Assembly (NCBI RefSeq): GCF_030812675.1
Contig: NZ_JAUSTE010000008.1
Coordinates: 124,001 to 188,000, forward strand
From: Sinomonas atrocyanea
GTDB taxonomy: Bacteria > Actinomycetota > Actinomycetes > Actinomycetales > Micrococcaceae
Direction: 5' to 3'
Length of the DNA stretch: 64,000 nt
Of this stretch, positions 51,342-64,000 are shown piece after piece (positions within the stretch are counted from its first letter, which is position 1; each line of letters opens with the position of its first letter). Made by a program: the position numbers and the translations under genes. The notes under the pieces are model-generated. The model made no database searches and was not told the origin of the DNA. It was given only the letters and a program-made list of their open reading frames with translations.

Positions 51342-51389
51342 GGCATCCGGCGGCAACCGATTGCGGGCCCGGGGGCGGCTCACTAGCGT
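51342..51389 (+). promoter_or_regulatory. Extended LacI-type operator 1 with leaderless promoter
   Basis: GGCAT (51342-51346), N5, GGCAACCGATTGCG (51352-51365). The right half overlaps -35 TTGCGG (51361-51366); a 17-bp spacer leads to TAGCGT (51384-51389), 6 nt before the ATG at 51396. The weakest palindrome of the four related sites, but with the same extra half-site. Confidence 0.7.
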
Positions 51390-51395
51390 GGAGGG

Positions 51396-52430
51396 ATGCA
51401 GCCTGAGGATACGCCCGTGCTCCGCGCCGCCGTGATCGGCTGCGGCGACATCTCCGCCCAGCACCTCGCGGCGATCGCGGCCCACGGCGCGGTGCGGCTT
51501 GTCGGCGTCGTCGACCCCGACCCGGCGCCGCGCGCTGCCGCCTCCGCCGCCCACGGCGTGCCCGGCTACGCGAGCGTCGGCGAGCTGCTCGCCGAAGGAG
51601 GCACCGACGTCGTCCACGTCTGCACTCCGCACAGCGAACACGCCCCGGCGGTGCTCGAGGCGCTCGCCGCGGGCGTGCACGTCCTGACGGAGAAGCCGCT
51701 CGCGCACACCCTCGCGGACGCCGAGCGGCTCGTCGAGGCGGCCGACGCCGCGTGGCTGGCCGGGCGGACCCAGCTGGGCGTGTGCTTCCAGAACCGCTAC
51801 AACGCCCCCGTCGCGGCGATGCGCGACCTCCTGGCATCCGGCACGCTCGGCGCCGTGATCGGGGCGCAGGCCACGGTCATGTGGCACCGGCCGCCCGAGT
51901 ACTACGCTGCCCGGCCGTGGCGGGGCACCTGGGCGGGCAGCGGCGGCGGCCTCCTCATGAACCAGGCGATCCACACGCTCGACCTCCTCCAGTGGCTCGT
52001 CGGGCCCGCCCAGGTTGTCGACGGGCGGGCCTCTGCCCGGGTCCTGGGGGACGTGATCGAGGTCGAGGACACCGCGGACCTGGTGCTGGAGCATGCCGGG
52101 GGCCAGCGCAGCGTCTTCTTCGCGACCAACGCCAACGGACTCAACGCTCCCGTCACCCTGGACGTCCAGACGGAGTCCGCGGAGCTGAGCCTGCGGGGGG
52201 ACCTCACCGTCCGTTTCGCCGACGGGCGCGTGGAGACGGTCGAGGAGTCCGGCGTCCTCCCCGGGGAGCGCAGCTACTGGGGCGCGTCCCACCGGCTGCT
52301 CATCGCTGACTTCTACCGGTCCGTCGCCGCCGGGGAGCGGTTCTGGATCGGCGCCCAGGAGGCCTCTGAGTCGCTGCGGCTCATCAAGGACGTCTACGCG
52401 CGCTCCTATTCGCCCGGCGCCTGGGCCTGA
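51396..52430 (+). CDS. Gfo/Idh/MocA family oxidoreductase
   Basis: 344 residues. Nucleotide-binding N-terminus LRAAVIGCGDISAQHLAAIAAHGAVRLVGVVDPD, then HVCTPHSEHAPAVLEALAAGVHVLTEKPLAHTL, with the EKP catalytic Lys. The second domain has WRGTWAGSGGGLLMNQAIHTLDLLQWLVG. NAD(P)-dependent oxidation or reduction of a sugar-type substrate; identity unknown. It starts a transcript with its own promoter and an operator shared with the sugar-acid genes, so belongs to that regulon. Confidence 0.9.
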   Translation: MQPEDTPVLRAAVIGCGDISAQHLAAIAAHGAVRLVGVVDPDPAPRAAASAAHGVPGYASVGELLAEGGTDVVHVCTPHSEHAPAVLEALAAGVHVLTEKPLAHTLADAERLVEAADAAWLAGRTQLGVCFQNRYNAPVAAMRDLLASGTLGAVIGAQATVMWHRPPEYYAARPWRGTWAGSGGGLLMNQAIHTLDLLQWLVGPAQVVDGRASARVLGDVIEVEDTADLVLEHAGGQRSVFFATNANGLNAPVTLDVQTESAELSLRGDLTVRFADGRVETVEESGVLPGERSYWGASHRLLIADFYRSVAAGERFWIGAQEASESLRLIKDVYARSYSPGAWA

Positions 52431-52435
52431 GATCC

Positions 52436-52484
52436 GGCAACTTCTGGCAAACGTTTACCATCCGACTGACTGCCTGCCTAGAGT
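52436..52484 (+). promoter_or_regulatory. Extended LacI-type operator 2 and promoter
   Basis: GGCAA (52436-52440), N5 (CTTCT), GGCAAACGTTTACC (52446-52459). It overlaps -35 TTACCA (52455-52460); an 18-bp spacer leads to TAGAGT (52479-52484). It begins 6 bp after the preceding stop and drives the TIM-barrel/dehydrogenase pair. Confidence 0.8.
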
Positions 52485-52546
52485 GAAAGCACTCTGTGAC
52501 GGCCGCCACTGGATGCGCTGGCCGTGAGGAACGATTGAGGAGACCC

Positions 52547-53407
52547 ATGGCCAAGATCGGCGTGCAGGCAATGATGCTCAAGGAGAGCTTCGCGGACATC
52601 GGGCCGTTCGAGACGCTCCGCAAGGTGGCGGAGATCGGCTACCGCGCCGTCGAGGTCTCCCAGATCCCCATGGACGGGCCGAATGTTGCCGAACTCGAGC
52701 GCTCCCGCGGGGAGCTGGGCATCGAGTTCGCCGCCCTGTCGGCCCAGCTCGACGGCGAGGCGGGAGCCACGCCGTACCCGCTCGCCGTGGACGTGGAGCG
52801 GGCAGCCTCCGACTGCGCCCGCCTCGGCACCGACATGCTCCGCATCGGCATGCTCCCCATGTCCGAGCTGCGCAGCGAGGACCGGGTGGTCGACTATGCC
52901 CGCCGCGTCGAGAAGGCAGCGCTGGCCCTCGCCGACCACGGCATCACCCTCTACTACCACAACCACCACGTCGACTTCGCCAAGATGGGCGGACGCTACG
53001 TGATGGACATCCTCGCCGAGGAGGCGCCCAGCATCGGCCTCGAGGTGGATGTCCACTGGGTCCAGCGCGGCGGCCTCGACCCCGTGCGCACGCTGGCGAA
53101 GTACGCCGGCCGCACCGCCATGGTCCACCTCAAGGACTACCGCATCGGCGCCCTGCCCGAGGAAGGCATCGCCGCCTACGAGGCGGGGGACTCCGAAGCG
53201 TTCCAGCGCCACTTCAAGGACGTGGTCCAGTTCGCCGAGGTAGGCGAGGGCAACCTGGACTTCGCGGCGATCGTGCCCGCCGCGGTCGACGCCGGCGCGC
53301 GCTACCTCCTCGTCGAGCAGGACCTGCTCTACGGGCGGACCGTGTTCGAGGCCCTCACCACCTCCCACGACAACCTCGTCGCCCTCGGCTTCGGCGACCT
53401 CTTCTAG
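52547..53407 (+). CDS. Sugar phosphate isomerase/epimerase-like TIM-barrel protein
   Basis: 286 residues from ATG 52547 with GAGGAG 6 nt upstream. IGVQAMMLKESFADIGPFETLRKVAEIGYRAVEVSQ, ITLYYHNHHVDFAKMGGRYVMDILAEEAPSIGLEVDVHWVQRGGLDPV, TAMVHLKDYRIG and EVGEGNLDF are the metal-binding strands of the xylose isomerase-like/AP endonuclease 2 fold. Relatives include inosose isomerases and 3-keto-sugar lyases. It is followed 12 nt later by a Gfo/Idh gene, a common pairing for oxidised-sugar metabolism. Confidence 0.88.
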   Translation: MAKIGVQAMMLKESFADIGPFETLRKVAEIGYRAVEVSQIPMDGPNVAELERSRGELGIEFAALSAQLDGEAGATPYPLAVDVERAASDCARLGTDMLRIGMLPMSELRSEDRVVDYARRVEKAALALADHGITLYYHNHHVDFAKMGGRYVMDILAEEAPSIGLEVDVHWVQRGGLDPVRTLAKYAGRTAMVHLKDYRIGALPEEGIAAYEAGDSEAFQRHFKDVVQFAEVGEGNLDFAAIVPAAVDAGARYLLVEQDLLYGRTVFEALTTSHDNLVALGFGDLF

Positions 53408-53419
53408 GAAGGCAGCAGC

Positions 53420-54583
53420 ATGAGCAGGAAAGTCCGCCTCGGCATCGTCGGGTTCGGCAACCAGGGCAGCCAGTACGCAGCACTCGTCGCGGATGGCCGG
53501 GTGCCGAACATCGAGATCGCCGCGATCGCCGACACGGATCCGGCGCGCCGCGAGCTCGCGGCGGAGCGGCACCCGGAGGCCGCGCTGTTCGACGACTATG
53601 CCGCGATGCTCGAGTCCGGGGCGGTCGAGGCCGTCGTGACGACCGTGCCCCACTACCTCCACCCGCAGATGGGCATCAAGGCACTCGAGCGCGGCATCCA
53701 CGTGCTGGTCGAGAAGCCGGCCGGCGTGTACACCCGGCAGGTCCGCGAGCTCAACGAGTTCGCCGCGGGCAAGCCGGAGCTGACGTTCGCGATCATGTTC
53801 AACCAGCGCACCAACCCGCTCTACCGCCGGCTCAAGGAGATCGTCGAGGCGGGGGAGATCGGCGCGATCCGCCGCACCAACTGGATCATCACCACGTGGT
53901 ACCGCCCGCAGGCGTACTACGACCAGAGCGACTGGCGCGCCACGTGGGGCGGCGAGGGCGGCGGCGTGCTCGTGAACCAGGCGCCCCACCAGCTCGACCT
54001 GTGGCAGTGGATCTGCGGCGTGCCCCAGCGGGTGTTCGCCAAGGCAGGCTTCGGCTTCCGGCGGAACATCTCGGTGGAGGACGAGGTCGTGGCGGTCGTC
54101 GACTACGGCAGCGGTGCCACCGGGACGTTCACCACGGCGACCCACGAGCTGGTGGGCACGGACCGCTTCGAGATCACCGGCGACGCGGGCAAGATCGTGG
54201 TCACAGACTCGAAGACCGCGGTCGTGACCCGCTACCGCCGCCCGGAACAGGAGATCAACGCGGGGATCCCGACCGAGGACATCTGGAAGATGACGAGCGA
54301 CCAGTTCGACCCCAATGAGTACTACACGCACGAGACGCTCGAATTCGACACCGCCTGGGGCGGCCAGCACGCCACCGTCCTCGAGAACTTCGCCGCGAAC
54401 ATCCTCGATGGCACCCCGCTCATCGCGCCCGGAAGCGACGGGATCCTCGGCGTCCGGCTCGCCAACGCGATCCACCTCTCGGCCTGGACCGGCAAGGAGG
54501 TCACGATGGACTTCGACGAGGGCGAGTTCCTGGCCGAGCTGAACAAGCGGATCGCCGAGGAGGGAAAGTTCCCCCAGCGCTGA
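53420..54583 (+). CDS. Gfo/Idh/MocA family oxidoreductase
   Basis: 387 residues. VRLGIVGFGNQGSQYAALVADGRVPNIEIAAIADTD is the dinucleotide fold; HVLVEKPAGVYTRQ supplies the catalytic Lys-Pro; WRATWGGEGGGVLVNQAPHQLDLWQWICG is the substrate domain motif. NAD(P)-dependent; likely oxidises a sugar or sugar acid at a ring carbon. Operon with the TIM-barrel protein upstream. Ends at a bidirectional terminator. Confidence 0.92.
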   Translation: MSRKVRLGIVGFGNQGSQYAALVADGRVPNIEIAAIADTDPARRELAAERHPEAALFDDYAAMLESGAVEAVVTTVPHYLHPQMGIKALERGIHVLVEKPAGVYTRQVRELNEFAAGKPELTFAIMFNQRTNPLYRRLKEIVEAGEIGAIRRTNWIITTWYRPQAYYDQSDWRATWGGEGGGVLVNQAPHQLDLWQWICGVPQRVFAKAGFGFRRNISVEDEVVAVVDYGSGATGTFTTATHELVGTDRFEITGDAGKIVVTDSKTAVVTRYRRPEQEINAGIPTEDIWKMTSDQFDPNEYYTHETLEFDTAWGGQHATVLENFAANILDGTPLIAPGSDGILGVRLANAIHLSAWTGKEVTMDFDEGEFLAELNKRIAEEGKFPQR

Positions 54584-54591
54584 GGGGCTCC

Positions 54592-54636
54592 CCGGAGGGC
54601 GGCCAGGGGGCGCCAGCGCGCCGGGCCGCCCTCCGG
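54592..54636. terminator. Bidirectional terminator
   Basis: CCGGAGGGCGGCC (54592-54604) pairs perfectly with GGCCGCCCTCCGG (54624-54636), 13 bp with a 19-nt loop, between the convergent Gfo/Idh and LacI genes, 6 bp from the LacI stop. Confidence 0.8.
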
Positions 54637-54642
54637 CGCGTG

Positions 54643-55683
54643 TCAGGCCAGCTTCGCCGGCCCTGTCGAGGCGCGCACCTGGAGATGGGTGGGCATGACG
54701 GCGAGCTTGCGCGGCGTGCCGCCATAAAGCGGATCGAGCTGGGCCAGCAGCATCGACACCGCGGTGCGGCCCGCCTGCTCGATGGGCGAGGAGATCGTGG
54801 TCAGCGGCGGGTTGCAGAAGTCCGCCCCGAAGATGTCGTCGCACCCCACGATGCTCACGTCCTCGGGAACGCGCACGCCGCGCTCGCGGAAGCGCTGGAG
54901 CATGCCGATCGCGATCAGGTCGTTGAACGCGATGAACGCGGTGGCGCCGGTGCCCAGGGCGGCGTCCGCGGCCGCGGCCCCGGAGAGCGTCTTGGGCGCG
55001 TAGGGGCCGATCCGCGTGACCTCGATGTTCCGGCGGGATGCGGCCTCCTGGATGGCCTGCCACCGGCGGTGCGTGGACCAGGAGCTGGTCGGGCCGCCCA
55101 CGTAGGTGACCTTGGTGTGTCCGAGGGAGGCCAGGTGCTCGAGGGCCTGCACCATGGCGCCCGGGGTGTCGATGAGCACGGTGGGCGCGTCCGCCGTCGC
55201 CCGGTTGATGGTGACGAGCGGCTGCCTGCCGGCCACCTCGGCGAGCTGCGCATCGGTCAGGCGGGAGGCGGCGAGGATGATCCCGTCCGAGGTGCGGCGC
55301 AGCCTCCGGAGGGCGTCGAGCTCGACGTCGGTGGCTTCCTCGGTGTCGACGAGCAGCTGGGTGTAGCCGGCCGCCTTGAGCTGGTTCTGGGTGCCCCGGA
55401 TGATGTCGAAGTAGAACGGGTTCGTGACGTCCGGCACGAGCACGGCGATGGCTCCCGTGCGGCCGGAGCTGAGCCCCCGCGCCTGGGTCGAGGGCACGTA
55501 GTTGAGCTCCGCGGCGATCTTCTCGATCCGCTCCCGGGTGCGGGCGTTGACCCGCTGGGGATTCGACAGGGCGCGCGAGACGGTCGACGTCGCCACGCCG
55601 GCCCGCTCGGCGATGTCACGGATTGTCGGCATGCGCTGGTCGGCGCCCTCGGAGGCTGCCGGGGGGGCGCTCGTGTCACTCAT
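54643..55683 (-). CDS. LacI family repressor, probable regulator of the sugar-acid regulon
   Basis: 346 residues from ATG 55683. A Ser/Ala-rich lead precedes the HTH MPTIRDIAERAGVATSTVSRALSNPQRVNARTRERIEKIAAELNYVPSTQARGLSSGRTG (about residues 18-77). The core has IAVLVPDVTNPFYFDIIRGTQNQLKAAGYTQLLVDTEE and VPEDVSIVGCDDIFGADFCNPPLTTI. It is divergent from the second ABC operon, and the operator at 55704-55727 lies between them. The same operator occurs at 51342, 52436 and 62835, so it likely represses all four units and itself. Confidence 0.92.
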   Translation of the reverse strand: MSDTSAPPAASEGADQRMPTIRDIAERAGVATSTVSRALSNPQRVNARTRERIEKIAAELNYVPSTQARGLSSGRTGAIAVLVPDVTNPFYFDIIRGTQNQLKAAGYTQLLVDTEEATDVELDALRRLRRTSDGIILAASRLTDAQLAEVAGRQPLVTINRATADAPTVLIDTPGAMVQALEHLASLGHTKVTYVGGPTSSWSTHRRWQAIQEAASRRNIEVTRIGPYAPKTLSGAAAADAALGTGATAFIAFNDLIAIGMLQRFRERGVRVPEDVSIVGCDDIFGADFCNPPLTTISSPIEQAGRTAVSMLLAQLDPLYGGTPRKLAVMPTHLQVRASTGPAKLA

Positions 55684-55703
55684 GGCTCCATTCCAGCAGC
55701 ACT

Positions 55704-55751
55704 GGCAACTTTTGGCAATCGCTTGCCGGTGTGTTCTCCTCTTCCTAGGCT
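55704..55751 (+). promoter_or_regulatory. Extended LacI-type operator 3 and promoter
   Basis: GGCAA (55704-55708), N5 (CTTTT), GGCAATCGCTTGCC (55714-55727). It overlaps -35 TTGCCG (55723-55728); a 17-bp spacer leads to TAGGCT (55746-55751), upstream of the ABC operon. It lies 20 bp upstream of the divergent LacI start, so can serve autoregulation. Confidence 0.82.
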
Positions 55752-55824
55752 GAGGGTCATGGGAAGGGCCAGTGAGCTGGATCACAGTGCGTCCTGGCTC
55801 GCAACGTACTCAAGGAGGAGACAT

Positions 55825-57177
55825 ATGCGAATCCGCAGCACGGCCACGGTGGCATCGCTCGCTGTCATGGCGTCCCTCGCCCTCGCCGCGTGCGGCTCGG
55901 GGTCGAGTGGAGGCTCGTCGTCCGGCGGGGCGGTGAACGGGGCGGGCAAGACGCTCGACGTCCTCGTGAACGTCAACACGAACTACCCGGAGCAGCAGAA
56001 GCAGTGGTTCACGGACACCGCCAAGAAGTTCAAGGACCAGACCGGCGCAGACCTCAAGTTCGAGACGTTCACCTCGGCGAACGACGAACTCACCCGGATC
56101 CAGACCTCTGTGGTCTCCGGCCAGGGCCCGGATGTGTACTCGCTGGGCACGACCTTCACCCCCACCGCCTATGCCACGAACGCCTTCGTCACGCTCTCCG
56201 ATGACGACTGGAAGAAGGTCGGCGGGAAGGACCGCTTCAACCAGGCCGCGCTCGGGATCTCCGGCCCGGACAAGGACCACCTCGCGGGCATCCCGTTCGT
56301 GAGCCGGCCGTTCATCATGGCGTACAACAAGGACCTCCTCAAGGCGGCAGGGATCGACAAGCCGGCCACCACCTGGGACGGACTGCTCGACCAGGCCAAG
56401 AAGCTCACCGATCCGGCCAAGGGCCAGTACGGCATGGCCGTGGCCTACAAGGACAACTTCGATCCCTGGAAGTACATCTGGGCCATGTCGGTGCAGGCCG
56501 GCAACCCCCTCGTGGACGGCAAGACCGCCAAGCTCGACGACCCGACGGTCCAGAAGGCCTACCAGACCTACTTCGGCTGGCTCACGAAGGACAAGGTGGT
56601 CAACCCTGCTGCCGTGGGCTGGAGCAACAGCCAGGCGCTCGCGGACTTCGCGTCCGGCAAGTCTGCCTACTTCCTCATGACGACCACGACCTCGCTGCCG
56701 ACGCTCGAGAAGTCCGCGATCAAGGACAAGTTCGAGTACTCGCTCATGCCGACCGTGGCGCCCGGTGAGACATCGTCGAAGTCCGACCAGCCGGCGGCCT
56801 CGATCCTGTCCGGCGACAACCTCGTGGTCGCCGACTACTCGAAGAACAAGGACCTGGCCTTCGCGTACGTCAACCTCGTCACGAGCAAGGACGAGCAGCT
56901 CAATTACCAGAAGACCTTCGGCGACCTGCCGGCCAACGCGGACGCCCTCGCCTCGCTGGGCAGTGCCCCGCACATGGCGGCGAGCACCCAGTCCGCCAAG
57001 GAGTCCAAGGCCACCCCGTTCACCGGCGCGTGGGGCGACATCCAGCTCGCCCTGCTCAACGTGACGGTGCAGTCCCTGCCCGACCTTGCCTCGGGGAACG
57101 TCTCGGATGCCGCTCTGAGCCAGCGCATCAAGGACGCCCAGACCAAGTCCCAGCAGTCCCTCGACAGGGCCAAGTGA
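55825..57177 (+). CDS. Sugar ABC transporter substrate-binding lipoprotein
   Basis: 450 residues from ATG 55825 with AAGGAGGAG upstream. The lipobox is ASLALAACGSG (Cys about residue 23), then a Gly/Ser linker. The mature part shows VLVNVNTNYPEQQKQWFTDTAKKFKDQTGADLKFETFTSANDELTRIQTSVVSGQGPDVYSLG, a family 1 solute-binding protein. By regulon it probably binds a glucuronide, galactonate-yielding or oxidised sugar; this is inferred only. First of a transporter/enzyme run. Confidence 0.92.
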   Translation: MRIRSTATVASLAVMASLALAACGSGSSGGSSSGGAVNGAGKTLDVLVNVNTNYPEQQKQWFTDTAKKFKDQTGADLKFETFTSANDELTRIQTSVVSGQGPDVYSLGTTFTPTAYATNAFVTLSDDDWKKVGGKDRFNQAALGISGPDKDHLAGIPFVSRPFIMAYNKDLLKAAGIDKPATTWDGLLDQAKKLTDPAKGQYGMAVAYKDNFDPWKYIWAMSVQAGNPLVDGKTAKLDDPTVQKAYQTYFGWLTKDKVVNPAAVGWSNSQALADFASGKSAYFLMTTTTSLPTLEKSAIKDKFEYSLMPTVAPGETSSKSDQPAASILSGDNLVVADYSKNKDLAFAYVNLVTSKDEQLNYQKTFGDLPANADALASLGSAPHMAASTQSAKESKATPFTGAWGDIQLALLNVTVQSLPDLASGNVSDAALSQRIKDAQTKSQQSLDRAK

Positions 57178-57195
57178 GAGAGCGGGACCTCCCGC

Positions 57196-58233
57196 GTGAC
57201 TGACATGAGCACTGCAAGCACCCCGAAGCCGGAGACCCGGCCGGCCGTACCCGCGGCCGGCCGGGGCGCCCGGCGCCCCCACCCCGCCGATCCGGGCGCC
57301 GCCGTCCGCGAGGAGCGCACCCCGCGCCCTCCGCGCCGACGCGGCCTCTCCGAGCGGAACCGTCCCCTGTGGATGCTCCTGCCCGGAGGCATCCTGATGA
57401 CCATCGTCATCCTGGTCCCCCTCGCCCTGGGCATCTTCATGTCCGCGCTCGACCTCGACCAGTACACGCTGCGCAAGTGGGTCTCCGCGCCGTTCATCGG
57501 TGCCGCCAACTACATCGAGGCCGTCACCCAGACCGAGCTGTTCCACGCCGTCTGGCTCAGCGTCTCCTACTCGTTCATCGCCACCGTCCTCGCGCTGCCG
57601 ATCGGCATCGCGGCCGCCGTGGCGACGCAGAACGCCTTCAGGGGCCGCGCGGTCGTGCGCTCCGTCTTCCTCATTCCGTACGTGCTGCCCTCGTTCGTCG
57701 TGGCGACCGTGTGGCGCACGATGTTCCAGCCGCAGGGGGTGGTGGACCACTCCTTCGGCGCCTTCGGGATCGATCCGGGGCTGTGGCTCAACGGCCCCAA
57801 CACGTACTGGGCCCTCATCTTCGTCCAGCTCTGGGCGTCCTGGCCGTTCGTCTACCTGCTCGCCCTCGCGGGCCTGCAGTCCGTGGACCACGAGGTGCAC
57901 GAGGCCGCCGCCCTCGACGGGGCACTGTGGTGGACCAAGCTGCGGTACGTGGTCTTCCCCTACCTCAAGGGCCCGGTGTCGCTCGCCTTCATCATCGGGA
58001 TGCTCAACCACATCAACAACTTCACCCTCCCGTTCGTCCTCTTCGGCATCCCCGCCCCCCACGATGTGGAGCTCCTGCCCGTCCTGACCTACGTGACGAG
58101 CTTCCAGAGCTTCCGCTTCGGTCTCAGCGCGGCCATGGCGGTCGTCTCGCTGATCCTCATCCTCATCCCGCTGTTCATCTACCTGCGCGCCGTCAAGCTC
58201 GACGACGCCGAAGCCCCGGGAGGCCGCAAGTGA
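57196..58233 (+). CDS. Sugar ABC transporter permease (MalF-like)
   Basis: 345 residues from GTG 57196 (ATG 57205 is an alternative). A long basic, Pro-rich start precedes six helices. LLPGGILMTIVILVPLALGIFMSALDLDQYTL is the first helix region; the EAA loop is EVHEAAALDGALWWTKLRYVVFPYLKGPV (about residues 234-262). The stop overlaps the GTG of the partner permease. No ATPase gene in the cluster. Confidence 0.92.
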   Translation: MTDMSTASTPKPETRPAVPAAGRGARRPHPADPGAAVREERTPRPPRRRGLSERNRPLWMLLPGGILMTIVILVPLALGIFMSALDLDQYTLRKWVSAPFIGAANYIEAVTQTELFHAVWLSVSYSFIATVLALPIGIAAAVATQNAFRGRAVVRSVFLIPYVLPSFVVATVWRTMFQPQGVVDHSFGAFGIDPGLWLNGPNTYWALIFVQLWASWPFVYLLALAGLQSVDHEVHEAAALDGALWWTKLRYVVFPYLKGPVSLAFIIGMLNHINNFTLPFVLFGIPAPHDVELLPVLTYVTSFQSFRFGLSAAMAVVSLILILIPLFIYLRAVKLDDAEAPGGRK

Positions 58234-59156
58234 CCCTCTCACAGTCCGCCACCAGGGCCGTCACCCCCGGCGGCCTCGTCGACAGGCCGGGTTCACGCCA
58301 GCAGTCGGAGGTCACCCGCCTCCTGCCCGTGTGGGTGATCGCGCTCGTCATCGCGGCGATCGGCCTGTTCGTCCTGGCACCGCTGCTGTACATCTTCCTC
58401 GCGAGCATCAACTCGGACATCTCCGTGGCCCGCGGCGACTTCTGGCCGGCCGAGTTCACCCTCGAGAACTACTCGAAGATCTGGTCCAGCGTGGGCCTCG
58501 CGAACGCCCTGACCAACTCGATCATCGCCGCCGGAGCCACCGCGGTCATCTCCGCGGTCCTCGCCATCGGGACGGCCTACGTGCTCGTGCGGTACCAGTT
58601 CTTCGGCCGCCTCACCATCCTGCGCGCCCTGCTGGGCCTGCAGTCCGTGCCGGGCACCCTGCTCGTCCTGCCGGTGTTCGTGCTGTTCTCCTCGGCAGCC
58701 ACCACCCTGGGCATCACGGTGATCGGCACCCGCTGGGGCCTCATCGTCACGTACCTCACGTTCGCGCTCCCGTTCTCCACCTGGGTCATGGTCACCTACC
58801 TGCGCGGGCTGCCGAAGGAACTCGAGGAGGCGGCGAGGATCGACGGTGCCAGCAACCTGGGCATCCTGACCAGGATCATCCTGCCGCTGAGCTGGCCCGG
58901 GATCATCGTCTCCGCCATCTTCGCCTTCCTGCTCGGCTGGAACGACGTGCTCTTCGCCTCGGTCATGACCCGGCCGGACACCCAGACCGCAGCCGTCGCG
59001 CTGCAGATCTTCGCCACCGGGACGGAGGGCGGGGCCATCCCGTTCTACGGCCAGATGATGGCGGCCTCGCTCGTCTGCGCGGCCCCGGTGGTGATCCTCT
59101 ACCTGTTCTTCCAGAAGTACCTAGTGGGCGGCCTGACCGCCGGAGGAGTGAAGTGA
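58230..59156 (+). CDS. Sugar ABC transporter permease (MalG-like)
   Basis: 308 residues from GTG 58230 (GTGA overlap). Six helices; FVLAPLLYIFLASINSD near residue 48, and EAA loop ELEEAARIDGASNLGILTRIILPLSWPGI (about residues 197-225). The stop again overlaps the next gene. A shared MsiK-type ATPase elsewhere must power the system. Confidence 0.92.
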   Translation: MTLSQSATRAVTPGGLVDRPGSRQQSEVTRLLPVWVIALVIAAIGLFVLAPLLYIFLASINSDISVARGDFWPAEFTLENYSKIWSSVGLANALTNSIIAAGATAVISAVLAIGTAYVLVRYQFFGRLTILRALLGLQSVPGTLLVLPVFVLFSSAATTLGITVIGTRWGLIVTYLTFALPFSTWVMVTYLRGLPKELEEAARIDGASNLGILTRIILPLSWPGIIVSAIFAFLLGWNDVLFASVMTRPDTQTAAVALQIFATGTEGGAIPFYGQMMAASLVCAAPVVILYLFFQKYLVGGLTAGGVK

Positions 59157-60010
59157 GCATCCAGGGAAGCCAAGCAGCGGCACTGCGCTGGGACCTGTCC
59201 GGGTTCGGCGACGAGATCGACGACGACCCGCGCGTCCAGGCCGCGGTCATGCGGGCCCTCGGCGCGAGCCACATCGAGGTCCGCAGCGCGTGGGGCACCA
59301 ACATCGTGGACCTGTCCGAGGAACAGCTGGCCCAACTCAAGGGCGTCCTCGACGAGGCAGGCCTGAATGTCTCCGCGATCGCCTCGCCGATCGGCAAGGT
59401 GGACGTGGAGCTGCCCGTCGAGCACGAGGTCGAGCGCCTGGGCCGGGCCCTCCGCGCCGCGGAAGTCCTCGGTGCCCCCTACATCCGCATCTTCTCCTTC
59501 TACTACGAGGGGAAGGCCCCCGAGCAGGTCCGCGAGGCGGTGATCGAGCGCATGGCCGCGCTCGCCCGGCGCGCGGAGGGCACGGGCGTCACGCTCGTGC
59601 ACGAGAACGAGAAGGACATCTTCGGCGACATCCCGTCCCGCGTCGCGGACATCGTCACGAGCGTGGGCTCTCCGGCGCTCAAGCTCGCGTGGGATCCCGC
59701 GAACTTCGTCCAGGTCGGCGTCAAGCCGTTCACCGAGGGCTACGAGCTCCTGCGCCCGCACGTGGTCTACCTCCAGGTCAAGGACGCGCTCTTCGCGGAC
59801 GGCAGCGTGGTCCCCGCTGGGGAGGGCGACGGCGAGGTGCTCCGCACGGTCGAGGCCCTGCGCGACAGCGGGTACACCGGCTTCGCCTCGCTCGAGCCGC
59901 ACCTGGCCGAGGCGTTCTCGCTGGGCGGGTTCAGTGGGCCCTACGCCTTCGGGGTGGCCGCCCGGGCCTTCGCGAAGGTCCTCGAGGCCGCCGGCGTCGA
60001 AGCGGGCTGA
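59153..60010 (+). CDS. Sugar phosphate isomerase/epimerase-like TIM-barrel protein
   Basis: 285 residues from GTG 59153 (GTGA overlap; GGAGGAG upstream). RWDLSGFGDEIDDDPRVQAAVMRALGASHIEVRSAWGTNI, YIRIFSFYYEGKAPEQV, TLVHENEKDIFGD, LAWDPANFVQVG and VYLQVKDALF supply the metal-binding residues of the xylose isomerase-like fold. Different subgroup from the protein at 52547. Placed between a transporter and uronate isomerase, it probably acts early on the imported substrate. Confidence 0.88.
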   Translation: MSIQGSQAAALRWDLSGFGDEIDDDPRVQAAVMRALGASHIEVRSAWGTNIVDLSEEQLAQLKGVLDEAGLNVSAIASPIGKVDVELPVEHEVERLGRALRAAEVLGAPYIRIFSFYYEGKAPEQVREAVIERMAALARRAEGTGVTLVHENEKDIFGDIPSRVADIVTSVGSPALKLAWDPANFVQVGVKPFTEGYELLRPHVVYLQVKDALFADGSVVPAGEGDGEVLRTVEALRDSGYTGFASLEPHLAEAFSLGGFSGPYAFGVAARAFAKVLEAAGVEAG

Positions 60011-60059
60011 CAGCGCCGCGAGAGACCGACAGACCAGCGCACAGAGAAGAGAAGCACCC

Positions 60060-61481
60060 ATGAGCCAGTCCATCGCCACCCATCCGGACCGCCTCCTGCC
60101 GGCAGACCCCGGAACCCGGGCGATTGCGCGCGAGCTGCTCGCCGAGGTCGAGCACCTGCCGCTCATCTCCCCGCACGGCCACGTGCCCGCGGAGATGCTT
60201 GCGGAGGACACCCCGTTCCCCGACCCCACGGCCCTCCTGGTCAGCCCGGACCACTACGTCACCCGGCTCATCCACGCCGGAGGGGTGGGCCTCGACCAGC
60301 TCCGCGTGGGCCCCGGGCCCCACGGCACGGACTCGCGCAGCGCGTGGCGGCACTTCGCCGCCGCGTGGCCGCTCTTCGACGGGACCGCCTCGGGCTACTG
60401 GATCCGCAGCGAGTTCGAGCACGTCTTCGGCCTCTCCGCCGAGACCGTGGACTCCTTCGGCGCCGAGACGGCGGACACCGTGTACGACGCGATCGCGGCG
60501 AAGCTCGCCGAGCCGTCCTTCCGGCCGCGCCAGCTCTTCAAGGACTTCGGCCTCGAGGTCCTCGCCACGACCGACGACCCGCTCGACGCCCTCGAGGCGC
60601 ACCGGCTCCTGGCCAAGGACGAGTCGTTCACCGGGCGCGTCCTGCCGACCTTCCGCCCCGACCCCTACCTCAACGTGGCCCACCCCGAGTGGGCCGGGCG
60701 GGTGGACCGGCTCACGGCGGAGGCGGGCGACGGCGTCGACGGCTACGCGGGCTACCTCCGGGCGCTGGAGAACCGGCGCCGCTACTTCGTCGAGAACGGC
60801 GCGGTCTCCGCCGACCACGGCGTCCGCACGCCGCTCACGCTCAAGCTCGACGCCGCGGAGGCCGCGGCGCTGTTCGCCAAGGCCCGCCGCGGCGAGGCGA
60901 CCGCGGCGGACCGCGACGCGTTCGAGGCGCACATGATGTACGAGATGGCCCGGATGAGCGTCGAGGACGGGCTCGTGATGACGGTCCACCCCGGCTCGTT
61001 CCGCAACCACCACACCGCGACGTTCGAGAAGTTCGGCGCGGACACCGGCCACGACATCCCCTTCGCGGTGCACTACACCGAGGGCATCCGCCCGCTCCTG
61101 GAGGACTTCGGCACCGCCAAGGACTTCCACCTCGTCCTGTTCACCCTCGACGAGACGGTCTTCAGCCGGGAGCTCGCCCCGCTGGCCGGCTTCTACCCCT
61201 CCGTGTACGTGGGCGCCCCCTGGTGGTTCCTCGACGCGCCGGACTCGATCCTGCGCTTCCGCTCGGCCGTCACCGAGACCACCGGCTTCACCCGGACCTC
61301 GGGGTTCATCGACGACACCCGCGCGTTCTGCTCGATTCCCGCCCGGCACAACATGAGCCGCCGCATGGACTCGGCCTTCCTCGCGAAGCTCGTCGCGGAG
61401 CACCGCATCACCGAGGGCCGGGCCCACGAGATCATCGTGGACCTGGTCGACGGGTCGCCGCGGCGCGTCTTCAAGCTCTAG
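60060..61481 (+). CDS. uxaC: Uronate (glucuronate/galacturonate) isomerase
   Basis: 473 residues, amidohydrolase-superfamily. It converts D-glucuronate to D-fructuronate or D-galacturonate to D-tagaturonate. Motifs: LPLISPHGHVPAEMLAEDTPFPDP (N-terminal HxH), VLATTDDPLDAL, RVLPTFRPDPYLNV, MTVHPGSFRNHH and SVYVGAPWWFLDAPDSILRFRSAVTETTG, all typical of UxaC. Follows the transporter genes with a 49-bp gap and precedes the fructuronate reductase. Confidence 0.95.
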   Translation: MSQSIATHPDRLLPADPGTRAIARELLAEVEHLPLISPHGHVPAEMLAEDTPFPDPTALLVSPDHYVTRLIHAGGVGLDQLRVGPGPHGTDSRSAWRHFAAAWPLFDGTASGYWIRSEFEHVFGLSAETVDSFGAETADTVYDAIAAKLAEPSFRPRQLFKDFGLEVLATTDDPLDALEAHRLLAKDESFTGRVLPTFRPDPYLNVAHPEWAGRVDRLTAEAGDGVDGYAGYLRALENRRRYFVENGAVSADHGVRTPLTLKLDAAEAAALFAKARRGEATAADRDAFEAHMMYEMARMSVEDGLVMTVHPGSFRNHHTATFEKFGADTGHDIPFAVHYTEGIRPLLEDFGTAKDFHLVLFTLDETVFSRELAPLAGFYPSVYVGAPWWFLDAPDSILRFRSAVTETTGFTRTSGFIDDTRAFCSIPARHNMSRRMDSAFLAKLVAEHRITEGRAHEIIVDLVDGSPRRVFKL

Positions 61482-61507
61482 CTCCCAGTCCCGAAAGGGG
61501 AATCCCC

Positions 61508-62827
61508 ATGCATGCCACCGCCTCCACCGAGGTGCTTCCCCTCCTGGGCAGGTCCGGCGCCCCGGCGCCCCCGGTGCGGATCGTGCACCTCGGCCTCGGC
61601 GCCTTCCACCGTTCCCACCAGGCCTGGTTCACCGCCCACGCCTCCGACGCCGCCCAGTGGGGGATCGCCTCCTTCACCGGCCGCCGGCCCGACGCGGCCC
61701 GCGTCCTCGCGGCACAGGACGGGCTCTTCACCCTGATCGAGCGCGGCGGCGACGGCGACCGCTTCGAGGTGGTCGGCTCGATCGCCGAGGCGGTCGACGG
61801 CGCGGACACCGCCCGCCTCGACGCCCTGCTGGCCGCCCCGGCCACCGCCATCGTCACGCTCACCGTCACCGAGGCGGTCTACGAGAAGCACGACGCCGAC
61901 TCACCCCTCGCGCGCCTGTGCCACGGACTCGAGGCGAGGCGCGAGGCGGGAGCCGGGCCGATCGCCGTCGTGAGCTGCGACAACGTGGCCGGCAACGCCG
62001 AGGTGGCCGAGAAGGCGCTGCTGTCCATCGCCGAGGGCCTCGACACCGGCCTGGCCTCGTGGGTGCGGGAGAACGTCAGCTTCGTGGGCACCTCGGTAGA
62101 CCGCATCACCCCCCGCACGACGCCGGACGACGTCGCCCTCGTCGCGGCGCAGTGCGGGTACCGCGACGAGTCGCCGGTGGTGGCCGAGCCGTTCGCGAAC
62201 TGGATCCTCGCCGGCGACTTCCCCGCGGGACGCCCGCGCTGGGAGGACGCGGGCGCCCAATTCGTGACGGACATCGAGCCGTTCGAGAACCGCAAGCTCT
62301 GGCTCCTCAACGGCGCCCACTCGATCCTCGCGTACGGCGGGCAGCTGCGCGGCCACACGACCGTAGCCGAGGCCGTGGCCGATCCGGCGTGCCGCGAGGC
62401 GGTGGAGGCCTTCTGGGACGAGGCGGCCCGGCACCTGACCCTGCGCGAGCTCGCCGTCCCGGACTACCGGAACGCGCTGATCGGCCGGTTCTCCAATCCG
62501 AGGATCGCCCACCACCTCGCCCAGATCGCCGCCGACGGCACCACCAAGCTGCGCATGCGCGCCGTGCCGGTGCTGGCGGCCGAGATCGCCGGCGGCCGCA
62601 CGGGCGTCGCCGCGGCGCGGATGATCGCGGTGTGGATGGACTTCGTCTCCGCCGCGGCCCCCGGCGACTTCCAGGACCCCCTCAAAGACCGGGTCCTCGA
62701 GGCGGCCTCGCTCGAGGGCAGGGAGCGCACCCAGGCGCTCGCGGAGCTCGTGGCCCCGGCGCTGGCCGGCGATCCGGTCGTCGTGGACCGCATCCACTCC
62801 CTGCGCGGCACGCTCGCCCGGGAGTGA
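61508..62827 (+). CDS. uxuB: Fructuronate reductase/mannitol dehydrogenase family protein
   Basis: 439 residues. RIVHLGLGAFHRSHQAWFTAHA at about residue 23 is the dinucleotide-binding motif of the polyol-specific long-chain dehydrogenases; TLTVTEAVYEK, SCDNVAGNAEVAEKALL, FVGTSVDRITPRTT and KLWLLNGAHSILAYGGQLRGH (catalytic Lys/Asn/His) follow. Position after uxaC and before manD marks it as fructuronate reductase, giving D-mannonate with NADH. Mannitol dehydrogenase is the less likely alternative. Confidence 0.9.
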   Translation: MHATASTEVLPLLGRSGAPAPPVRIVHLGLGAFHRSHQAWFTAHASDAAQWGIASFTGRRPDAARVLAAQDGLFTLIERGGDGDRFEVVGSIAEAVDGADTARLDALLAAPATAIVTLTVTEAVYEKHDADSPLARLCHGLEARREAGAGPIAVVSCDNVAGNAEVAEKALLSIAEGLDTGLASWVRENVSFVGTSVDRITPRTTPDDVALVAAQCGYRDESPVVAEPFANWILAGDFPAGRPRWEDAGAQFVTDIEPFENRKLWLLNGAHSILAYGGQLRGHTTVAEAVADPACREAVEAFWDEAARHLTLRELAVPDYRNALIGRFSNPRIAHHLAQIAADGTTKLRMRAVPVLAAEIAGGRTGVAAARMIAVWMDFVSAAAPGDFQDPLKDRVLEAASLEGRERTQALAELVAPALAGDPVVVDRIHSLRGTLARE

Positions 62828-62834
62828 TCCTCCC

Positions 62835-62883
62835 GGCAATTTGCGGCAAACGTTTGCCATCATGGACCCGTCCTCAGTATGCT
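62835..62883 (+). promoter_or_regulatory. Extended LacI-type operator 4 and promoter
   Basis: GGCAA (62835-62839), N5 (TTTGC), GGCAAACGTTTGCC (62845-62858), a perfect palindrome. It overlaps -35 TTGCCA (62854-62859); an 18-bp spacer leads to TATGCT (62878-62883), before manD. It shows that manD has its own repressed promoter rather than relying on uxaC-uxuB read-through. Confidence 0.85.
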
Positions 62884-62920: not shown

Positions 62921-64000
62921 ATGAAGATCGTCTCCGCTGAAGTCTTCGTGACGAGCCCGACGCGCAACTTCGTGACCCTGAAGATCACCACGGACGAGGG
63001 GGTCACCGGGATCGGCGACGCCACCCTCAATGGCCGCGAGCTCGCCGTGGCCGCGTACCTGAAGGAGCACGTGGCCCAGCTCCTCATCGGCCGGGACCCC
63101 CACATGATCGAGGACACGTGGCAGTTCCTCTACCGCTCCTCCTACTGGCGGCGCGGGCCGGTGACCATGGCCGCGATCGCCGCTGTGGACATGGCCCTGT
63201 GGGACATCAAGGGCAAGATCGCGGGCCTGCCCGTGTACCAGCTCCTCGGCGGTGCTTCCCGCCGGGGGCTGCGCGCCTACGGGCACGCCTCCGGCACAGA
63301 CCTTCCCTCGCTGTTCGACTCGATCCGCGAGCACCTCGAGCTCGGCTACAAGTCCATCCGCGTCCAGACCGCCATCCCGGGCATCAAGGCCGTCTACGGG
63401 GTGGCCGCCCAGGCGCAGGCCTCGGGGGAGCGGTACGACTACGAGCCCGCGGGCCGCGGCGCGTACCCGCAGGAGGAGGACTGGGACACCCGGGCCTACC
63501 TGCGCCACCTCCCCACCGTGTTCGAGGCGGTGCGCAACGAGTTCGGCCCCGAAATCCCGCTCCTGCACGACGGGCACCACCGCATGACCCCCATCCAGGC
63601 AGCCAAGCTCGGCAAGGCGCTCGAGCCCTACGACCTGTTCTGGCTCGAGGACTGCACCCCCGCCGAGAACCAGGAGGGCCTGCGGCTGGTCCGCCAGCAC
63701 ACCACCACCCCCCTGGCCATCGGCGAGATCTTCAACACCGTCTGGGACTTCCAGCTGCTCATCCGCGAGCAGCTCATCGACTACGTCCGCGCCGCCTCGA
63801 CCCACTTCGGCGGCATCTCGCCGCTGAAGAAGGTCATGGACTACGCGGCCCAGTACCAGATCAAGTCCGGCTTCCACGGCCCCACGGACATCTCGCCGGT
63901 CGGCTTCGCCGCCCAGCTGCACGTGGGCCTCGCGATCCACAACTACGGGATCCAGGAGTACATGCAGCACTCCGAGAAGACCAACACCGTCTTCGAGCAG
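62921..64000 (+). CDS. manD: D-mannonate dehydratase, enolase superfamily ManD (3' end outside window)
   Basis: 360 residues are visible and the frame runs off the end. GAAAGGAAG precedes ATG 62921. ManD/RspA hallmarks: [128 protein letters not shown] and [12 protein letters not shown]. It dehydrates D-mannonate to 2-keto-3-deoxygluconate. About 40-45 residues are missing compared with the usual length of about 400. Confidence 0.93.

Follow-up and report, generated by a model that had tools for sequence, protein, structure and literature searches.

Repressors of the LacI family are textbook dimers that bind a palindrome made of two half-sites. The question raised by a 64,000-nucleotide stretch of Sinomonas atrocyanea DNA (the window) is what reads a third half-site that stands upstream of four such palindromes, in the orientation of their left half.

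A composite operator in a predicted glucuronate regulon

A preliminary description had listed four sites at which a palindrome is preceded by GGCAA or GGCAT. The motif GGCAW-N5-GGCAANCGNTTNCC is indeed exact at 52436, 55704 and 62835, and the site at 51342 differs by one mismatch, its right half being TTGCG. We refer to the upstream half-site as H0 and to the left and right halves of the palindrome as H1 and H2 (Table 1). With up to two mismatches allowed, the full motif matched four times in the window, where shuffling predicts 0.05 matches and none of 100 shuffles reached four. At the same tolerance the palindrome alone gave 19 matches in the window against 17.6 expected, which is not above chance, and the signal therefore lies in the palindrome and third half-site combined. 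A scan of the whole genome with up to three mismatches returned four exact sites and no others, namely the three in the window and one just outside it (G000:C8:188692), which precedes a β-glucuronidase gene. A single mismatch was seen at 51342, at C1:3579 (GGCAC) and on the reverse strand at 188692.

Table 1. Operators and genes of the cluster, with positions in the window.
Feature	Position	Strand	Details
Operator 1, Gfo1 promoter	51342..51365	+	weak H0 GGCAT 51342-51346; palindrome 51352-51365, right half TTGCG; -10-like TAGCGT 51384-51389
Gfo1, Gfo/Idh/MocA oxidoreductase	51396..52430	+	
Operator 2, TIM1-Gfo2 promoter	52436..52459	+	H0 GGCAA 52436-52440; palindrome 52446-52459; -10-like TAGAGT 52479-52484
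TIM1, xylose-isomerase-like TIM barrel	52547..53407	+	
Gfo2, Gfo/Idh/MocA oxidoreductase	53420..54583	+	
LacI-family regulator, 346 aa	54643..55683	-	helix GVATSTVSR; PF00356 and Peripla_BP_3 domains
Operator 3, lacI / ABC-uxaC divergent region	55704..55727	+	H0 GGCAA 55704-55708; palindrome 55714-55727; -10-like TAGGCT 55746-55751
ABC transporter substrate-binding protein (SBP_bac_1)	55825..57177	+	
ABC permease 1 (BPD_transp_1)	57196..58233	+	
ABC permease 2 (BPD_transp_1)	58230..59156	+	
TIM2, xylose-isomerase-like TIM barrel	59153..60010	+	
UxaC, glucuronate isomerase	60060..61481	+	
Fructuronate-reductase-like enzyme, mannitol dehydrogenase family	61508..62827	+	
Operator 4, manD-gluconokinase promoter	62835..62858	+	H0 GGCAA 62835-62839; palindrome 62845-62858; -10-like TATGCT 62878-62883
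ManD, D-mannonate dehydratase	62921..64000	+	continues beyond window end

The -10 box that had been placed behind each palindrome is present at all four sites, where direct reading finds TA-N3-T boxes starting 18–19 bp past the palindrome end; of 62 sites in the genus, 61 have an offset of 18–20 and one yielded no box. A second full palindrome overlapping the first by 10–13 bp was ruled out, its partner half being absent. The position of H0's missing partner is taken by H1, in the opposite orientation, and the sites do not contain the two complete palindromes of tandem LacI operators.

The regulator encoded in the cluster belongs to the LacI family (PF00356, E 1.3e-18; PF13377, E 2.3e-35). The genes that it is predicted to control are those of glucuronide and glucuronate catabolism, which bears out the earlier grouping of Gfo/Idh, TIM-barrel, ABC-transporter and hexuronate genes into one regulon. 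Past the window end, manD is followed by gluconokinase, a further operator, β-glucuronidase and a glucuronide transporter, and the predicted regulon is larger than first described, taking in β-glucuronidase and the glucuronide permease; gnd probably also belongs to it.

Conservation of H0 and its tie to one LacI clade

Promoters of the genus were picked by the core palindrome alone, without regard to H0, giving 62 sites (60 distinct sequences). H0 was exact at a spacer of 4–6 in 53 of them and matched at least four of five positions in 59, where composition shuffles at spacer 5 gave a mean of 0.07 exact matches and at most one. The spacing, described at the outset as exactly 5 bp, is mostly so (42 of the 62 sites); at a further 11 sites an exact H0 lies at spacer 4 or 6, and spacing is thus not strict. 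The mean best H0 match at these spacers was 4.27/5 at Gfo1 promoters, 4.60 at TIM1 promoters and 5.00 at the other three, and at TIM1 promoters H2 is the degenerate half (mean match 4.0). The third half-site of Gfo1 is weak throughout the genus, not just as GGCAT at 51342.

At the lacI promoters of named relatives, a core matching at least 10 of 12 positions was found in 77 of 80 loci, the central CG being required by the search. H0 reached 4/5 or better at spacer 5 in 65 of the 77 unique sites, 37 of them exactly, where shuffles averaged 0.9 and never exceeded 6; since all the sites share descent, this and the other shuffle nulls overstate independence. The half-site here is fuller than the GGCAA that stands at three of the window sites, reading TGGCAA, with the preceding T found in 72/77 copies of H0 and 77/77 of H1. 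H0 and H2 also share their most variable position (0.46 bits at column -9; 1.0 at column 12). The T-rich spacer, CTTTT or ATTTT, is itself kept at many lacI promoters. A weaker half-site, H3, lies downstream on the promoter side and is enriched in Micrococcaceae: with a match of at least 4/5 at spacer 5–7 it occurs at 50 of the 77 lacI promoters, against a mean of 5.9 and a maximum of 13 in shuffles. The core gap is fixed at 4 by selection of the sites, while the H0 spacer ranges over 4–6 and that of H3 over 5–7.

Sites with fewer than 10/12 core matches or without a central CG were dropped, as were 72 of 132 other sites that had no oriented -10 box; 30 core matches not upstream of cluster genes were retained as a control. 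Scored on either side, H0 was exact in 73/95 promoter sites and matched at least 4/5 in 91/95, against 0/30 and 6/30 of the control matches. Together with the shuffles, these core-like controls rule out a chance origin of H0.

We also surveyed the class in a test blind to H0, using the upstream regions of 71 of 91 rows (the 19 lowest rows were left out, and G101:C2:19928, which falls within L141, was excluded from the count) requiring a core of at least 11/12 and then scoring an outer half-site on either side as present when it matched 4/5 or better at spacer 4–6. Regulators with the helix GVA[ATP]STVSR had the outer half-site at 21 of 22 operators (exact in 18; it lay on the lacI side alone in 19, on the opposite side alone in one and on both in one), and the usual description of LacI-family operators as two half-sites only, which is not a strict criterion, does not fit them. 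Shuffles of the 25 sites in this test gave a mean of 2.3 (largest 7), or 0.15 for exact copies (largest 3). The remaining three belong to regulators with other helices and the same core, and none has the outer half-site; H0 as a property of the core palindrome itself is rejected on this small number. H0 is missing at L283, whose core is good, and likewise at L294 and L303 (core 10/12). A recognisable core before lacI was absent in 6 of 35 GVA-helix regulators, and the Sinomonas paralogues L130–L132, of the same tree clade, lack such a palindrome at lacI. H0 occurs in families whose LacI proteins share 42–50% identity. On the tree, with labels assigned by us and a match of at least 4/5 counted as present, H0 rows fall in three subclades of one supported 49-row clade; since the label needs four changes, a single origin is not established. 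Judged by these sequences, H0 follows one LacI clade across the class, beyond Micrococcaceae. The preliminary description, which had called for a scan of this genome and its relatives, staked its reading on H0 being kept at orthologous promoters, and H0 recurs at them in the genus, at lacI and class-wide.

Among the 13 other LacI genes of this genome, five (L146, L152, L153, L154 and L157) have clear promoter palindromes with no half-site copy at spacer 5, leaving H0 as a general LacI property unsupported within this genome; the other eight have no palindrome, or distant or GC-rich candidates, and say little on H0. L154 has one 4/5 copy at spacer 7, from a tandem palindrome, and L148, one of the eight, has a GC-rich candidate 255 bp upstream that is accompanied by a 4/5 copy at spacer 5. 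A second operator type in an Arthrobacter group, GACAA..TTGCC (27 sites), has no upstream copy reaching 4/5 at spacer 5 (0/27); such copies occur once at spacer 6, 12 times at spacer 7 and once at spacer 8, and GGCAA in the opposite orientation lies 6 bp downstream in 15/27. The H0 variants GACAA and GTCAA associate with the right half TTGTC (Fisher p 3.6e-8), but they follow a handful of clades, and another family has GACAA at H0 next to a perfect core (L275, L280), so that the link reflects shared tolerance and not covariation.

How the third half-site may be read

As had been proposed, a LacI dimer on the palindrome fails to account for H0, and the standard two-half-site model looks incomplete here. 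We suggest that the four sites are operators of the repressor in Table 1, governing glucuronide and glucuronate catabolism. A dimer would bind the CG-centred palindrome TGGCAANCGNTTGCCA, where H2 would cover the -35 box and RNA polymerase would be kept off until a sugar acid of the pathway, presumably glucuronate, fructuronate or mannonate, releases the repressor. H0 (TGGCAA) lies roughly a helical turn further upstream, oriented like H1 and facing the same side of the DNA, and headpieces of the same regulator would read it, most likely through an additional subunit kept next to the DNA-bound dimer; each operator would then be contacted specifically by three or more headpieces. The looser H3 of many Micrococcaceae would make the layout roughly symmetric. 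That the LacI protein reads H0 is very probable; that H0 and H1/H2 are occupied simultaneously is an even call. The whole, an extra subunit beside the dimer, is the explanation we favour, by a little over even chances. Counting against it, a pair of canonical dimers offset by 10 bp should collide, because H1, wrongly oriented, sits where the second dimer's other headpiece would be. The loose spacing, the weak H0 of Gfo1, the GVA-helix regulators and paralogues lacking H0 or a core, and the Arthrobacter operator type also weigh against it. As to a tetramerisation helix of the E. coli LacI type, a long C-terminal extension was seen neither in the LacI alignment nor in the matches to PurR and LacI chains; an AlphaFold model from a 15-row alignment is poor (mean pLDDT 63).

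A rather unlikely alternative is that a single dimer occupies only one pair of half-sites at any moment, H1/H2 with a gap of 4 or H0/H2 with a gap of 14, which adds a turn of the helix. Such states might produce two levels of output, or H0 might serve to retain the dimer close to the promoter. The two gaps differ by 10 bp, H2 over the -35 box at TIM1 is more degenerate than H0, and widened gaps are reported for CcpA at crevar sites (7, 8 and 18; PMC5263246) and for CytR (spacers of 10–13; PMC3454398). Against such switching, H1 and the central CG are near-invariant, partly by site selection, which points to the compact register as the main one, and this analysis gave no sign of a flexible hinge in the LacI protein.

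It is improbable that H0 merely resembles a LacI half-site and that its reader is a different protein, be it a second regulator or the alpha subunit of RNA polymerase. H0 lies at about -54 to -50, a region in which upstream promoter elements act, and the spacer is T-rich; yet H0 shares the bases and variable position of the LacI half-sites, follows one LacI clade in many families, and is absent as part of an exact full motif elsewhere in this genome. Least credible is a non-functional relic or by-product of common promoter ancestry. Common descent and the conserved spacer at many lacI promoters would fit it, whereas H0 has been retained at several different promoters while flanks and spacers diverged, and in families whose LacI proteins are as distant as noted above. 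A wider reading, for the whole class, is a phased three- and partly four-half-site operator for this LacI clade, where either three or more headpieces assemble along successive major grooves or binding switches between two half-site pairs, and repression is set by occupancy of the accessory half-site; we give this wider claim slightly less than even chances.

Relation to known operators

Operators that depart from the standard arrangement are known in the family. CytR sites of γ-proteobacteria consist of two weak half-sites 10–13 bp apart or directly repeated 1 bp apart, mostly between CRP sites (PMC3454398); the half-site core TGCAA/TTGCA is common to both systems and variable half-site spacing may be, whereas here a half-site oriented as H1 is added to a strong CG-centred palindrome. 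The crevar sites of CcpA, also a LacI-family protein, are described as two half-sites with a variable, widened gap (PMC5263246), whereas the operators of this regulon retain the compact palindrome and have a third half-site in addition. Tandem or overlapping LacI-family sites, with spacing peaks at 13, 22 and 32 bp (the last two helically phased), likewise place more than two half-sites at a promoter, but as complete palindromes, and not with a 10-bp shift and no second palindrome (PMC4052901). Since that survey sought only palindromic motifs of 14–24 bp, an extra half-site could escape it. MalR of Streptomyces and AcrC of Actinoplanes are actinobacterial LacI-family repressors with inverted and direct repeats of the heptamer CTTGCAG at spacers of 3–15 bp; half-site and pathway differ, and the portion seen describes no fixed composite of palindrome and phased half-site (PMC5526262). 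Our search of the open-licence literature found no match for an additional LacI half-site of this layout; if true, either mode, extra subunit or switching pair, would be a form of LacI operator recognition absent from the literature searched.

A deeply conserved accessory half-site suggests that palindrome-only surveys miss part of the code, and the operator offers a means of testing whether LacI proteins bind with several headpieces or in two registers, while defining a putative actinobacterial glucuronate regulon. The composite motif would also sharpen regulon prediction relative to the palindrome alone: when one mismatch was allowed, the palindrome matched 35 times in this genome against 62 for a reversed control, and the 20-base composite motif gave 41 matches in 394 genomes against 6 for the control.

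Composite operators at hexuronate promoters

Each operator consists of a LacI palindrome with a central CG (left half H1, right half H2), preceded by a further half-site, GGCAA or (at 51342) GGCAT, in the orientation of H1 (H0). Allowing two mismatches, the full pattern occurs at four sites in the window, against 0.05 expected from dinucleotide shuffles, and the four composite sites of the preliminary description are thus borne out, three of them exactly (Table). The 14-bp palindrome by itself, at up to two mismatches, showed no excess over chance within the window, indicating that the extra half-site is genuinely informative. A scan of the 4.12 Mb genome returned the exact full pattern at four places only, the fourth lying approximately 700 bp beyond the window end, upstream of a beta-glucuronidase gene. 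The gene for 6-phosphogluconate dehydrogenase, gnd, located on another contig, is preceded by a palindrome with GGCAC-N5. Two other genus members have sites in front of gnd: in G013 the half-site is GGCAT with a spacer (the distance from H0 to the palindrome) of 4 bp, and in G002 it is GGCAA with a spacer of 5 bp, next to a core reading AGCAA. An operator at gnd may connect hexuronate use with the pentose phosphate pathway.

As had been described, H2 covers a -35-like hexamer at all four window sites. A TA-N3-T box begins 18–19 bp past the palindrome end. Taking the box at the lacI site as reference for a presumed start point, H0 would lie at about -54 to -50, H1 at -44 to -40 and H2 at -35 to -31, and the three half-sites would therefore share one helix face, with H0 oriented like H1.

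Table. Coordinates of operators and associated features.
Feature	Position	Detail
Gfo1 operator	51342	1 mismatch
TIM1-Gfo2 operator	52436	exact
LacI regulator gene	54643-55683	
lacI / ABC-uxaC operator	55704	exact
TA-N3-T box, lacI site	55746-55751	
manD-gluconokinase operator	62835	exact
beta-glucuronidase operator	C8:188692	exact
beta-glucuronidase gene	L042:2284-4120 (G000:C8)	directly beyond window
gnd	L043:2043-3592 (G000:C1)	GGCAC-N5 upstream
TIM1 palindromes, G012	L112:4556 and 4625	locus reversed

Conservation of the upstream half-site

Promoters in 39 loci from relatives were chosen by palindrome core only (at least 10/12 bases, central CG, no more than 400 bp ahead of a cluster gene). 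The regulator's ten nearest named relatives all come from Sinomonas, and the genus set comprised 15 genomes and 62 sites, 60 of them distinct. An exact upstream GGCAA was found at spacer 5 in 42 of these sites, spacer 6 in seven, spacer 4 in four and spacer 7 in one, with none at any other spacer from 0 to 20; 59/62 had H0 at 4/5 bases or better. The third half-site is thus conserved at orthologous promoters, as proposed (exact at spacer 4–6 in 53/62), but not at exactly 5 bp, since 11 sites have a spacer of 4 or 6, and these argue for some flexibility. The nine sites without an exact copy at spacer 4–6 are seven Gfo1 promoters and both palindromes of a single TIM1 promoter. In G012 the TIM1 promoter carries a pair of palindromes at a distance of 69 bp.

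Outside the genus, 16/33 sites had an exact copy at spacer 5 and 22/33 a copy of at least 4/5. When either side was considered, cluster promoters had an exact copy in 73/95 and at least 4/5 in 91/95; for core-like matches away from cluster promoters the figures were 0/30 and 6/30. Among 80 named loci, mostly from Sinomonas, Arthrobacter, Paenarthrobacter and Pseudarthrobacter, 77 had a lacI promoter with a core, and at 65 of 77 unique sites H0 stood at spacer 5 with four bases or more matching (37 exact; shuffled flanks gave a mean of 0.9 and at most 6).

Association with one clade of regulators

A search of 394 genomes of the class for TGGCAAN4TGGCAANCGNTTGCCA, with two mismatches tolerated, returned 41 matches from 30 genomes; the reversed pattern returned six from five. 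Of the 30 returned loci, 18 had a homologue of the regulator within 1.5 kb, five more had another pathway gene and seven had neither, one of these being gnd of the source genome. Because this search presupposes the motif, it was repeated starting from the protein. LacI homologues at E 1e-65 or better were present in 64/394 genomes (91 rows), and 71 lacI upstream regions were read irrespective of H0, five of these regulators having been used earlier. Where the regulator had the helix GVA[ATPVL]STVSR and the core matched at least 11/12, 21/22 cases had an outer half-site matching 4/5 or better at spacer 4–6 (18 exact), the sole exception being L283, which has a good core. The spacer was 5 in 15, 6 in four and 4 in two, and the half-site stood on the lacI side in 20 cases and solely on the opposite side in one. 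None of the three regulators with other helices and an equally good core had one; shuffles of all 25 sites predict 2.3 at 4/5 or better and 0.15 exact. No recognisable core was found at lacI for 6/35 regulators with the GVA helix. In a tree of 60 proteins all 36 rows labelled as H0-bearing fell inside a single supported clade of 49 and were spread over all three of its subclades; the other members of the clade were five rows labelled as lacking H0 and eight without a label.

Some results do not fit this pattern. Three Sinomonas paralogues within the clade (L130–L132) have no TGGCAA palindrome at lacI. Each is the second LacI of its genome, 53–55% identical, and lies next to a binding protein, permeases and sugar genes of its own. 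An Arthrobacter group has a second operator type, GACAA-NCGN-TTGCC, at 27 sites (L208–L236; one in L184) approximately 2.2 kb from the lacI start. Upstream copies matching at least 4/5 are absent from all 27 at spacer 5 (one occurs at spacer 6, 12 at 7 and one at 8), and 15 have an opposite-orientation GGCAA 6 bp downstream.

H0 is probably read by the LacI protein itself. At lacI promoters it has the flanking T and variable second base in common with H1 and H2. The variants GACAA and GTCAA are frequent at H0 where H2 is TTGTC (Fisher p = 3.6e-8), but this pairing tracks a small number of clades, and GACAA is found at H0 next to a perfect core as well (L275, L280), so that the pairing points to no more than a shared alphabet. 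At five other LacI genes of the genome, all with clear upstream palindromes (L146, L152, L153, L154, L157), spacer 5 carries no H0-like copy.

Possible mechanism and regulon

To the observed geometry, conservation and clade association of H0 a putative mechanism can be added, in which the regulator would repress by covering the -35 region, a sugar acid would relieve repression, and H0 would be bound by another of the regulator's headpieces. There would be no room for a second canonical dimer at a 10-bp offset from the first, which suggests either an extra subunit with only one headpiece engaged or one dimer alternating between H1/H2 and H0/H2. A TTGCC-like word 5–7 bp past the palindrome on the promoter side, found in 50/77 lacI promoters (20 exact; shuffle mean 5.9) and 28/62 genus sites (five exact; shuffle mean 5.3, largest 15), is loose, and indistinct at the four window sites. 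Were this fourth half-site real, the complete operator would be roughly symmetric, which would speak for a symmetric assembly with additional subunits.

Widened half-site spacing has been reported for the LacI-family regulator CytR (PMC3454398) and for CcpA crevar sites (PMC5263246), and by analogy is plausible within the family. A large survey of LacI-family sites, which searched palindromic motifs of 14–24 bp only, describes palindromes mostly with a central CG, and multiple sites at distances peaking at 13, 22 and 32 bp (PMC4052901); Streptomyces MalR half-sites form inverted and direct repeats (PMC5526262). In contrast to both, the sites here combine a palindrome with one phased half-site kept across a clade. 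Since the available text of these LacI-family, CytR, CcpA and MalR reports describes no such layout, we take it as a new form of a known operator type.

The preliminary description had linked Gfo/Idh, TIM-barrel, ABC-transporter and hexuronate genes into one regulon. By family, these genes encode a pair each of Gfo/Idh oxidoreductases and xylose-isomerase-like TIM barrels, UxaC, a fructuronate-reductase-like enzyme, ManD and an ABC importer (binding protein and two permeases), with gluconokinase, beta-glucuronidase and a glucuronide transporter after ManD. This gene set is a glucuronide/glucuronate pathway, and we infer that the effector is one of its sugar acids. In the source genome the beta-glucuronidase gene is in two reading frames, split near codon 68. 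The pieces are in frame in six genus members (G008, G004, G002, G003, G014 and G012) and also offset in G013; the split in the source genome is either a sequencing error or a pseudogene.
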